A DNA stretch of 64,000 nucleotides from the NCBI RefSeq assembly GCF_004210735.1, contig NZ_SDZL01000005.1, forward strand, positions 1-64,000, read 5' to 3'. Position 1 is the first letter of the stretch; each line of letters opens with the position of its first letter. The notes beneath the pieces are model-generated. The model saw only the letters and a list, made by a program, of their open reading frames with translations, had not been told where the DNA came from and did no database searches. Position numbers and translations under genes: made by a program. Shown piece by piece: positions 45,596 through 49,646 of the stretch. Source of the DNA: Brevundimonas sp. Its GTDB lineage: Bacteria > Pseudomonadota > Alphaproteobacteria > Caulobacterales > Caulobacteraceae.

Positions 45596-46780
45596 GTGAT
45601 CCAAGCGTCAGGAGCCCCGATGCCCTCGTTGACCGACAGAACACGCCTGATCGCCGGCGCCACGAGACGGGGCGGTGGCCGTCGTCCCGTCAATCCGCCA
45701 ATCGAACGCGCCTCGACCATGCTCAGTGACCGTGTGGCGGACATGCGCGATCCGTCGCTGGGCCCGCTTTACGGCCTGGATGGAACCAGCGCTGCGCGTG
45801 AGTTGCGCGCCGCCGTCGCCGATCTGGAGGGCGCGGCCGACGCCTGGCTGACACCCTCGGGGCTGTCTGCTGTCACCGTCCCCCTGCTGGCTCTTGCCCG
45901 GCCGGGCGACGAAATATTGACGACCGACGCCGCCTACGGTCCCACGCGCCGTTTTCTGACGCGGCATATGGGTCAGCGTGGTGTCGCCTCGCGATTTCAT
46001 CCCGCCGCCGCCTCTGCCGCCGACATCCTGTCGATGCTAACGGAACGCACCCGGGTGTTGCTGATCGAATCGCCCGGCTCGCTGACATTCGAAATGCTGG
46101 ATGTTTCCGCCTTGGCCGCTGCCTGTCGCGAGCGGGGCGTTCTGACCGTCATGGATAACACTTGGGCGGCGGGTCTGGCGTTCCGCCCCCTGGCGCAAGG
46201 CGTCGACATCAGCGTTCAGGCCCTGACCAAATACGCTGCGGGCCATTCCGATCTGCTGATGGGTTCTATCGCGCTCAGTGATCCCGAACTGAACCGGGCG
46301 ATCTGCGAGACGATTGAGGACCTGGGCTGGCATGTCTCGCCCGACGACGCCTGGCTGGCGCTGCGCGGACTGCGGACGCTGCCTCTGCGTTATGAACAGC
46401 AGGCCCGATCCGCGCTGACGATCGCCGAATGGCTGACCGCCCGGCCCGAAGTCGCGACGGTCCTTTATCCCGCCCTGCCCGGCTCTGTGGGGCATGACCT
46501 ATGGGCGCGAGACTATACGGGTGCGGCGGCGCTGCTGGGGGTCGTGCTCAAGGATGGCGCCATGGCCCAGGCCCATCGCCTGCTGGACGCCCTGACCCTG
46601 TTCGGCCTGGGCTATTCGTGGGGCGGATTTGAAAGTCTGGCGACGTATGAGACGCCGCAGCTGGCTTTCCGCCAGACGCGGCCCGACCTGCCCGGCTCGC
46701 TTCTGCGACTGCACATTGGGCTGGAAGACCCTGTCGACCTGATCGCCGACCTGGAGCAGGCGTTCGCGGCTTTGGCATAA
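45596..46780 (+). CDS. metC: Cystathionine beta-lyase (PLP Cys/Met metabolism family)
   Basis: YGLDGTSAARELRAAVADLEGAADAWLTPSGLSAV...VMDNTWAAGLAFRPLAQGVDISVQALTKYAAGHSDLLMG. Confidence 0.93.
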   Translation: MIQASGAPMPSLTDRTRLIAGATRRGGGRRPVNPPIERASTMLSDRVADMRDPSLGPLYGLDGTSAARELRAAVADLEGAADAWLTPSGLSAVTVPLLALARPGDEILTTDAAYGPTRRFLTRHMGQRGVASRFHPAAASAADILSMLTERTRVLLIESPGSLTFEMLDVSALAAACRERGVLTVMDNTWAAGLAFRPLAQGVDISVQALTKYAAGHSDLLMGSIALSDPELNRAICETIEDLGWHVSPDDAWLALRGLRTLPLRYEQQARSALTIAEWLTARPEVATVLYPALPGSVGHDLWARDYTGAAALLGVVLKDGAMAQAHRLLDALTLFGLGYSWGGFESLATYETPQLAFRQTRPDLPGSLLRLHIGLEDPVDLIADLEQAFAALA

Positions 46781-46786
46781 GGGCGG

Positions 46787-46835
46787 CGCGCCCAGCAGGA
46801 CTCGAACCTGCACCCCCCTGCTGAGAAGGCAGGTG
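46787..46835 (-). pseudogene. 3' half of split tRNA-Arg(TCT)-type gene
   Basis: RC: CACCTGCCTTC-TCAGCAGG-GGGGT-GCAGGTTCGAGTCCTGC-TGGGCGC-G; no acceptor/D-arm upstream. Confidence 0.82.
46825..46835. repeat. Left copy of duplicated 11-bp att core GAAGGCAGGTG
   Basis: Identical to 49292-49302. Confidence 0.8.
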
Positions 46836-46858
46836 AAAATGAATAAAAACAACGCCGT

Positions 46859-46922
46859 CGTCCAACTGTTCTGCCAATGTTCGCTATCGTAGAATCAATG
46901 GGTTACAGGTCGAGTTGGACGG
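46859..46922. repeat. Left-end candidate integrase arm sites: CGTCCAAC (46859-46866) and GTTGGACGG (46914-46922)
   Basis: Same motif as repeats at 49208-49216 and 49231-49245, just inside the other end. Confidence 0.5.
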
Positions 46923-46969
46923 ATTTAGTGGGTCTTCACACGCGGGGTTTAGATGGATAGCGTCACGGT

Positions 46970-48079
46970 ATGAACAAGCCCGTCATCGCCTGCTTGGGGA
47001 ACTGTCAGAGCGGGGCTATCCGTGGGATTCTGCTTGCGATTCCTGAGGTCAAGGAACGCTTCGATGTTCTGTTCACGCGGCGGCCGCAGGATTTCGCCGC
47101 AATGCGCGACCGGGTTGCCGTTGTTGTCCAGCAGGCGACGCATAGCTGGGACGACTTCACCGTTGCCGACTTGCCGACCGGCGCGACCCACATTCGCTAC
47201 CCGGCGGCGCTGATCAACTACCCTTGGCCCCTCATCCCGTTTCAGCGTCGGGTCAAGGAGAGGACGGCTAGGGATGCACACTTTCCCTACACCATCTGCG
47301 ACGCCCTGGTTGATGAGTTGAGGGCCAAGGGCGTCCCTAAGGAAAGCCTGCTGGATGCCTACTTTTCGGTGGACGTGACCAAGCGGTTCCCGCTGGAGCG
47401 CCTCAGACGCATAAATGAGGCCAAGGCTCGCCAGATCGATGCCCTTTCCGACTTTCCGATTTGGGACCAAATGCAGGTGGGCCAGAGCATGAGGACCGCC
47501 AATCACCCCAACGGCCCGCTCCTGTCCTATATGGTAGCGCAGATCATCGAGCGGCTTCCACTTGCTGACGTAGCGGCGGCTCAGGAGGAGGCGGCAGCGC
47601 GAGTGACCGATTACGGCATTCAGCCTGTCGAGGCGCCCGTGCACCCACAAGTGGCCGATGCCTTGGGTCTGGAGTGGGCAAAAGAACGAAAATGGACCTT
47701 CTGGCTAGAGGGCGACTTCACGTTCGAGGAGCGCCTGCTGCGTCTGTACGACATGTCCTACAACGAGGCGTTTCAGGAGGGACGGGACAAGCTGGCTAAA
47801 GGTGAGGAGGCGATACACTCGTTTGAACAGGCCTCCCGCGAGTTGCCCGACAGCGCCATGGTTCACGCGTTCTATGCAACGGCTCTAATCAAGGCCGGCA
47901 GATGGAGCGAGGCGGCTGATGTGCGCGGACGGATATGGAAGCTTGATCCTAGCGACACCAATCGCACTCGTTATTGGACTGCTCTTCGGCGTGCGAAGCG
48001 GATGGATGAGGCCGACGCCATCCTTGCCGCAAATGACGGCTCGCCCTCACAAACTAATGCAATAGCCCCGGTCTCATGA
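46970..48079 (+). CDS. WcbI-type polysaccharide biosynthesis protein with C-terminal TPR repeats
   Basis: MNKPVIACLGNCQSGAIRGILLAIPEV N-terminus; C-terminal TPR-like SYNEAFQEGRDKLAKGEEAIHSFEQASRELPDSAMVHAFYATALIKAGRWSEAADV. Confidence 0.7.
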   Translation: MNKPVIACLGNCQSGAIRGILLAIPEVKERFDVLFTRRPQDFAAMRDRVAVVVQQATHSWDDFTVADLPTGATHIRYPAALINYPWPLIPFQRRVKERTARDAHFPYTICDALVDELRAKGVPKESLLDAYFSVDVTKRFPLERLRRINEAKARQIDALSDFPIWDQMQVGQSMRTANHPNGPLLSYMVAQIIERLPLADVAAAQEEAAARVTDYGIQPVEAPVHPQVADALGLEWAKERKWTFWLEGDFTFEERLLRLYDMSYNEAFQEGRDKLAKGEEAIHSFEQASRELPDSAMVHAFYATALIKAGRWSEAADVRGRIWKLDPSDTNRTRYWTALRRAKRMDEADAILAANDGSPSQTNAIAPVS

Positions 48080-48232
48080 ACTCCTTCCAAAAGAGCATCC
48101 TTAGTATTGCCCCCAACACGGCGATTACCGAGGACAACGAGATCCAGGCCATCTGGTTATGTGCTCCTGCGGGGGCCAGTGCTGCTGTCCCGCGACACCA
48201 AGTTCCGAAATGGAAATCTTGCTGCTATATAC

Positions 48233-49036
48233 TCACTTCTCGTGGCTGAGGACTTTCTCGTCCGTACGGTAGAACTCCCGCTTGGGAGACGCCCTTCTAC
48301 ATATCGTTTTACCTTCACGCCGAAGGGATGCGGTCGCCGCCTGTTCCGGCGTGACGGCGCGGATGACCTGAAGACTCGTCCTCCAGGTGGGCAGGTCGGT
48401 AAGCGCGCGCCCGCCAGCCAAGTCGGCCTTCGTCGCCCCCACCACTTCAGCAGCAGCCTCGCCCGCCGCGGCCCCCGCTGCTTGACCAGCAATGGCCCCC
48501 GCAACAGCGGCGTCACCGTCCGCGTCCTGTGCCGCCTGAATGGCCGCACCGATGTCTGCAAGGACTTGTTGCGCGTCGGTCTTCGCCGCCTCCGCGCCGT
48601 CGCGCTCGGTTCCAGCCGCCTGGGCCCACCCCTGCGCCTCGGTTTCCGCCGCGATGGCGCCGGACTCGGCCGCTTCCGCGCGGTCGGCATCGGCTGCAAC
48701 AGCACCGGCGACTACCGCCGCCGCCTCCGTCACCACGGCGGCGAAGTCATCTTCGATCCGGTCCAGATCGCGGCGCATGTCCTGGTCGACGGCCGTCAGA
48801 CGGTTGAACGCCATATCGATGGCGCGCACCGGCACATTGTTTCGCCGGGCATAGTTGCTGGTCCGCGCCGGCGCGATATGGCGACGGATAAGCACCGTGC
48901 CGGTCGCGGGCGTGTTCAGCGTGACCGTCCCGCCCTGATAGCCGCCACCCTCCAGCAGCGTGCCGCTGAACGTGAACTGGCTCTGCGTCAGCCAGACGTC
49001 ATCGACCCGCACCTCCAGGTCCGCTTTCGCGAACAT
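48233..49036 (-). CDS. Phage tail-fibre N-terminal-like protein, likely truncated
   Basis: FAKADLEVRVDDVWLTQSQFTFSGTLLEGGGYQGGTVTLNTPATGTVLIRRHIAPARTSNYARRNNVPVRAIDMAFNRLTAVDQDM, the T7-like tail-fibre head-domain pattern, followed by Ala-rich repeats. Confidence 0.75.
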   Translation of the reverse strand: MFAKADLEVRVDDVWLTQSQFTFSGTLLEGGGYQGGTVTLNTPATGTVLIRRHIAPARTSNYARRNNVPVRAIDMAFNRLTAVDQDMRRDLDRIEDDFAAVVTEAAAVVAGAVAADADRAEAAESGAIAAETEAQGWAQAAGTERDGAEAAKTDAQQVLADIGAAIQAAQDADGDAAVAGAIAGQAAGAAAGEAAAEVVGATKADLAGGRALTDLPTWRTSLQVIRAVTPEQAATASLRREGKTICRRASPKREFYRTDEKVLSHEK

Positions 49037-49111
49037 CTAGCCCGCGACACAACCGTCGCCAGGAACGCCCAGATCAAGCGCGGCATCGTGACGGATAACG
49101 CCGCGTGAAGA

Positions 49112-49188
49112 TGGCGCGCCCTGCAGGACTCGAACCTGCAACCGTTCGCTTAGAAGGCGAGTGCTCTATCCGGTTGAGCTAAGGGCGC
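49112..49188 (-). tRNA. tRNA-Arg(TCT), intact, element-borne, CCA encoded
   Basis: RC folds: GCGCCCT TA GCTC AACCGGATA GAGC A CTCGC CTTCTAA GCGAA CGGTT GCAGG TTCGAGT CCTGC AGGGCGC G CCA (77 nt). Confidence 0.95.
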
Positions 49189-49207
49189 GGAACTTCTCAG
49201 AAACAAA

Positions 49208-49245
49208 GTTGGACGGGCTACCGCCTGAAAGTTGGATGGACGGGT
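49208..49245. repeat. Right-end candidate arm sites GTTGGACGGG and GTTGGATGGACGGG
   Basis: Direct repeats near the right junction; motif shared with 46859-46922. Confidence 0.5.
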
Positions 49246-49291
49246 AAAATGCGTTGTATTTCAGCGACATAGAGAACGGGAAAACTGCTTG

Positions 49292-49302
49292 GAAGGCAGG
49301 TG
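49292..49302. repeat. Right copy of duplicated 11-bp att core GAAGGCAGGTG
   Basis: Identical to 46825-46835. Confidence 0.8.
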
Positions 49303-49327
49303 CTCTATCCGGTTGAGCTATGGGCGC
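49292..49327 (-). pseudogene. 5' half of split tRNA-Arg(TCT)-type gene
   Basis: RC: GCGCCCA TA GCTC AACCGGATA GAGC A CCTGC CTTC, then diverges (CAAGCAGTTTTCCCG); acceptor GCGCCCA pairs with TGGGCGC of the 3' half. Confidence 0.85.
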
Positions 49328-49340
49328 CCGAACTGGACGA

Positions 49341-49646
49341 TCAGTGCGTCCAGGACTGTTTGCGGTTGGTGGCGAAATTGTCGGCATAGGCCTTGATGAT
49401 CGCCGGCGCCTCGTTCGGCTCGTGCAGGCGGAACGGAATGCCGTGACGCTCGGCGTATTCGACAGCTTCTTCCTTGCTGTCGAAGGTCAGACGCACCTGG
49501 CCGTTCATGTCGCTGGAACTGGTCCAGCCCATCAGGGGATCGATGGTGCGGGCCGATGCGGGCTCGAATTCCAGACGCCAGTCGCGGCTCTTGGCCTTGC
49601 CCGACTGCATGGCGGTCTTGGCGGGGCGATAGATGCGCGCGAGCAT
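49341..49646 (-). CDS. ETC complex I subunit (NDUFS4-like)
   Basis: MLARIYRPAKTAMQSGKAKSRDWRLEFEPASARTIDPLMGWTSSSDMNGQVRLTFDSKEEAVEYAERHGI. Confidence 0.93.
   Translation of the reverse strand: MLARIYRPAKTAMQSGKAKSRDWRLEFEPASARTIDPLMGWTSSSDMNGQVRLTFDSKEEAVEYAERHGIPFRLHEPNEAPAIIKAYADNFATNRKQSWTH

Follow-up and report, generated by a model that had tools for sequence, protein, structure and literature searches.

A tRNA-Arg(TCT) gene divided by the probable remains of a prophage in Brevundimonas sp.

When a tRNA gene is found cut through its anticodon arm, two questions arise: what divided it, and whether the function of the tRNA was lost to the cell. Such a case is present in the window (the whole stretch of 64,000 nucleotides of Brevundimonas sp. 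DNA that was analysed), in which a sequence-only reading had described a tRNA-Arg(TCT) gene split in two by a 2.4-kb element in the anticodon loop. The split was confirmed, with both halves found where that reading had placed them, and the insertion does lie there; the inserted DNA, however, is no intact 2.4-kb mobile unit but, very probably, what is left of a podovirus-like temperate phage that lysogenised its host in the tRNA-dependent manner and later decayed, its tRNA being kept. This explanation is based on sequence, namely on the split itself, the empty site in relatives, a unique complete tRNA inside the element, matched attP arms, remnants of integrase and tail genes, and parallel cases.

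The divided gene and its empty site

The two halves of the host gene and the host genes that flank them are located in the window as follows.

45596-46780, plus strand: Cys/Met-metabolism PLP enzyme, host flank, the downstream neighbour of the tRNA in relatives (Pfam; synteny)
46785-46835, minus strand: host tRNA-Arg(TCT) gene, 3' half, with the attR core at 46818-46835 (CACCTGCCTTCTCAGCAG); matches the intact genes of relatives with two substitutions
49285-49327, minus strand: host tRNA-Arg(TCT) gene, 5' half, with the attL core at 49285-49302 (CACCTGCCTTCCAAGCAG); 43-nt match to the intact genes of relatives
49341-49646, minus strand: NDUS4, host flank, the upstream neighbour of the tRNA in relatives (Pfam; synteny)

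Over its 43 nt the 5' half is like the tRNA-Arg(TCT) genes of relatives except for a single T-to-C substitution at position 37 of the gene, which falls within the anticodon, and it breaks off within the anticodon arm at 49285 (minus strand), while the 3' half is like them from the anticodon arm to the end of the gene, with substitutions at positions 38 and 48. Both halves are therefore altered in or beside the anticodon, as would be expected of dead sequence. The core that they have in common comprises 11 identical base pairs, the length previously proposed; if the whole anticodon arm is counted, it extends to 18 bp, of which two adjacent ones are mismatched. ARAGORN calls no tRNA on either half alone and a tRNA-Arg(TCT) on the in-silico excised junction of the two, a check for which the sequence-only reading had named tRNAscan or ARAGORN. 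Because neither junction scores as a tRNA and the core gives way immediately to an attP arm at both ends, the target gene is regenerated at neither junction and the locus departs from ordinary tRNA-gene integration, in agreement with the earlier proposal of site-specific integration in the anticodon arm that left the host tRNA unrestored.

An empty site with an uninterrupted tRNA, the comparison by which the split was to be judged, is present in at least seven other genomes of the genus, none of the same species (L009, L010, L011, L016, L027, L034 and L038), where the intact gene is immediately flanked, as the divided gene is here, by NDUS4 and the Cys/Met-metabolism gene. Closest in sequence are the genes of L009-L011, which have the same CCTGC/GCAGG anticodon stem; a match to the tRNA-Arg(TCT) gene, or to part of it, was obtained in 126 of 131 genomes of the genus.

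Since they are complementary and oriented alike, the halves might be taken for a functional split tRNA whose parts are separately transcribed and joined as RNA, but we consider this vanishingly improbable given the substitutions in or beside the anticodon in each half and the presence of a complete copy of the tRNA. To our knowledge, moreover, the joining of separately transcribed tRNA halves at the RNA level is not established in bacteria.

Contents of the inserted element

Between the two halves the following features were recognised.

46836-46969: distal attP arm, with CGTCCAACT at 46859-46867 and AGTTGGACG at 46913-46921, spacing 54 bp; motif and spacing as in phages L169, L176, L178 and L184
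46970-48079, plus strand: polysaccharide gene of the WcbI type with TPR, probably cargo of the phage (Pfam PF18588 and PF14559)
48233-49036, minus strand: tail-fibre gene without its 5' end, a remnant; tail fibres of prophages and phages are 55-64% identical to it in a stretch of about 90 residues
49037-49108, plus strand: C-terminal 23 codons of a tyrosine integrase gene (LARDTTVARNAQIKRGIVTDNAA) and stop codon; 13 of 19 residues identical to the C-terminus of the G110 integrase; placed beside attP as in relatives
49112-49188, minus strand: complete element-borne tRNA-Arg(TCT) (ARAGORN; whole-genome searches)
49189-49284: integrase-side attP arm, with direct repeats (AAAGTTGGAYGG) at 49205-49216 and 49228-49239, spacing 23 bp; motif and spacing as in phages L169, L176 and L178

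An intact tRNA-Arg(TCT) had been noted nearby by the sequence-only reading, and it does exist (ARAGORN, 49188-49112), but that it sits inside the element was missed. It has the orientation of the broken gene and starts 96 bp past the broken 5' half. In the host assembly, a draft of 165 contigs that is 95.7% complete and on which uniqueness was judged, it is the sole full-length match and the sole match to a TCT-anticodon pattern, and it thus appears to be the cell's only gene for tRNA-Arg(UCU). Its acceptor stem has the pair T7-A66 where the broken gene has A7-T66, and its anticodon stem also differs; these differences, with the acceptor pair compensated, indicate that it came in whole and is no repaired copy of the broken gene. 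Its nearest relatives are tRNAs of other members of the genus (97% identical).

It had been concluded that the target gene was destroyed, which is correct in that the gene is cut and neither half scores as a tRNA. Its function, however, was probably not lost to the host, since the element brought with it a complete tRNA-Arg(TCT) that is now the only one found in the genome. The codons AGA and AGG are rare but used in the nearby genes (6 of 2956 codons), and the element's tRNA would be essential to the host. It is probably expressed by read-through from the old promoter, which would be the simplest source of a transcript because the complete tRNA lies just downstream of the 5' half and in the same direction; a promoter scan of the element, of a kind ill-suited to this bacterial group, recognised none.

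The arms show how the two ends of the element belong together. Phages L169, L176 and L178 have a single uninterrupted attP with the same repeat motif, spaced by 23 bp on the integrase side and by 54 bp on the distal side (22 and 54 in L184), and the distal arm of the element aligns with those of these phages and with that of the G128 element. In the G110 and G288 elements the arm motifs are different, yet the spacing is again 23 bp. A shuffle test on the 9-mers common to both arms of the window element gave 43 of 5000, of moderate significance only; conservation of the spacing is stronger evidence. The matched motif and spacings indicate that the ends of the element, when joined, make up one attP with no more than the anticodon arm as its core; the L169-L178 phages have a tRNA-Pro 3' half between arm and core, and the window element is without one.

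A model in which two nested elements, one restoring the 3' half of the gene and the other the 5' half, entered in turn, left a hybrid tRNA between the stranded halves and then both decayed was considered seriously after the G110 and G128 elements were examined. Elements of both kinds do exist at tRNA-Arg(TCT) in the genus (3'-restoring in G001, G023 and G015, 5'-restoring in G110), and the integrase remnant adjoins the complete tRNA as it does in 3'-restoring elements. The model was nevertheless dropped on arm geometry, since the repeats of both ends are one motif, spaced by 23 and 54 bp as within a single attP, and the arm found beside the integrase in 3'-restoring elements would not fit into the 3 bp between integrase and complete tRNA; the acceptor stem of the complete tRNA is, in addition, self-consistent and no hybrid. 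We regard the model as largely refuted and very unlikely.

As remains of a single prophage, the element also retains traces of phage genes. The integrase C-terminus, on the strand opposite to the complete tRNA and next to its 3' end, contains TVARNAQIKRG, identical to the C-terminus of the G069 integrase, and its match to that of G110 is short (23 codons only, E about 0.06 in a small local search). In relatives of the element the integrase is full-length, whereas here the C-terminal 23 codons alone are left, with the arm sites clear. Upstream of these codons the frame is no longer that of an integrase and the tail-fibre gene begins, on the minus strand and without the first residues of its homologues (MARLTIPDEPTFATFTASAQAVFPISFSL or similar), from which a deletion that fused the integrase end to the tail-fibre gene can be deduced. 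Homologues of the tail fibre occur in prophages of the genus and in IMG/VR phages that also encode the related integrase, and it is from these that the identity of the ORF was derived; taken alone, the ORF had no match in PHROGs or Pfam (standard thresholds), annotated phages or IMG/VR. The group looks podovirus-like, as one integrase-bearing phage, L176, has genes for an internal virion protein, for a tail needle-like protein and for a Sak4-like annealing protein. The WcbI-type/TPR gene, without relatives in the other phage loci searched, is probably phage cargo and possibly serves to alter the cell surface. With the integrase C-terminus fused to a truncated tail-fibre gene and both tRNA halves diverged, the element can be read as prophage remains of about 2.4 kb that would be unable to excise by their own means.

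Proposed course of events and known systems

The proposed order of events is that the host gene was killed, that the phage tRNA rescued the cell and that a later deletion spared this tRNA. A tyrosine integrase would have recombined an attP core consisting of the anticodon arm only with the host's single tRNA-Arg(TCT) gene, which would thereby have been cut, neither junction rebuilding it. A complete phage tRNA-Arg(TCT) located between the integrase gene and the attP arm would have kept the lysogen alive. A deletion that brought the integrase C-terminus and the tail-fibre gene together would then have taken away nearly all of the phage, with the broken halves gathering substitutions and the phage tRNA being retained because it was now the host's only copy. 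The window copy would accordingly represent a fossil of tRNA-dependent integration and no active phage.

Three characteristics of tRNA-dependent lysogeny are found here: an attB in a host tRNA gene with a short core (11 to 18 bp, neither half being called by ARAGORN), an element-borne complete tRNA whose isotype is that of the target (tRNA-Arg(TCT), 49112-49188), and a disrupted host tRNA that is otherwise unique (no other TCT tRNA in the 95.7% complete assembly). This kind of lysogeny was described and named in 2024 in actinobacteriophages (Fionnbharth, LeBron, Gaia and others), was shown by phage and plasmid genetics and is proven in mycobacteriophages, its spread elsewhere having been left open (PMC10865867). 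The window element resembles those phages in having a short core in a tRNA gene that neither junction regenerates, a phage-borne complete tRNA of the same isotype and paired attP arm sites (PMC10865867). It differs from them in phage group, host phylum and target, here tRNA-Arg(TCT), and in that the phage has decayed while its tRNA remains as the host's gene (PMC10865867).

Also in Alphaproteobacteria, Lo5R7ANS-like prophages are reported to disrupt the central part of tRNA-Leu(UAG) in Sinorhizobium meliloti AK21 and RU11/001 and to contribute a similar tRNA; in contrast with the window element they lie in another tRNA and are intact, and a remnant stage is not described in the part of that report concerned with them (PMC11476347). 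Ordinary integration, as catalogued by Islander, likewise has a tyrosine integrase target in a tRNA gene and displaced fragments that mark the ends, but there one junction restores the target gene and here neither does (PMC4383910).

Parallel cases in Caulobacteraceae and phage contigs

A second remnant is found in Phenylobacterium sp. E19_concoct.bin.116 (G347, L156), where a 5' half is followed by arm repeats 24 bp apart, a complete divergent tRNA-Arg(TCT), a degraded integrase and a 3' half. This independent genome with the same layout is one reason why an artefact of assembly or binning, by which phage and host sequences were wrongly put together, seems to us even less likely than nested elements, although the draft is in 165 contigs; the other is the consistency of arms, cores and halves at the two junctions. 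In G065, of the same genus as the window, the order is integrase C-terminus, complete tRNA-Arg(TCT) in the orientation opposite to that in the window, arm repeats, core and 3' half (L061, 7380-7760); no 5' half is left after NDUS4.

What looks like the phage form of the full-tRNA scheme is seen in three IMG/VR contigs (L190, L191 and L192). Each has a full integrase and a complete tRNA-Arg(TCT), followed by arm repeats and a core-only attP, in which the anticodon arm (CCGCCTTCTAAGCGG) stands by itself and is flanked by neither tRNA half. Relative to the tRNA of these contigs the core runs in the opposite direction, which makes them cousins of the window element and not its parent phage. In the integrase tree L190 and L191 are placed next to G110, which has a 5'-restoring element; most of the others are of the 3'-restoring type.

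A family-wide pattern for tandem copies demanded a G before TAGCTC and missed the window itself, so that its count is no estimate of frequency; one of its hits, G274, was rejected as a chance match before a tRNA-Arg(ACG). The corrected pattern, run over the genus, found the window only, and a mirrored case such as G065 would escape it. A direct pattern for the phage layout found nothing in IMG/VR although L190-L192 show that layout, the pattern having been too strict or its spacing wrong, and this zero is uninformative.

The window locus, the two further remnants and several phage contigs indicate that tRNA-dependent lysogeny occurs in phages of Caulobacteraceae, and their value lies both in the apparent end state, in which the host has taken over the tRNA gene of a decayed prophage, and in the recurrence within one bacterial family. 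It is rather probable that in this family the essential tRNA-Arg(UCU) gene of the host has been replaced by temperate phages more than once and for good, the phage decaying while its tRNA cannot be lost; if true, this would constitute a one-way route for the exchange of single-copy tRNA genes between lineages. As related integrases there are associated with a tRNA rebuilt from the 3' side, rebuilt from the 5' side or carried as a full copy, the switch between these solutions is open to study.

Several further loci were observed. Elements of the mirror type, which restore the 5' half of tRNA-Arg(TCT), are present in G110 (L059:1819-1868, L060:11474-11550) and G288 (L151, L157), and both bring a similar upstream stretch with CTTATCC about 32 nt before the tRNA, which may be a promoter. 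Phage L182 has a related integrase and a tRNA-Pro(TGG) 5' half after its arm repeats and is probably of the 5'-restoring type. Related integrases are also encoded by L121 (G333; also L160) and L205, with putative attP arms beside a radC-like gene, apparently a non-tRNA target. The IMG/VR contig L081 contains, at 2846-2884, the first 39 nt alone of a tRNA-Arg(TCT)-like gene, possibly a further split, and L165, a record named Brevundimonas, has a tRNA-Lys(CTT) element like that of G034.
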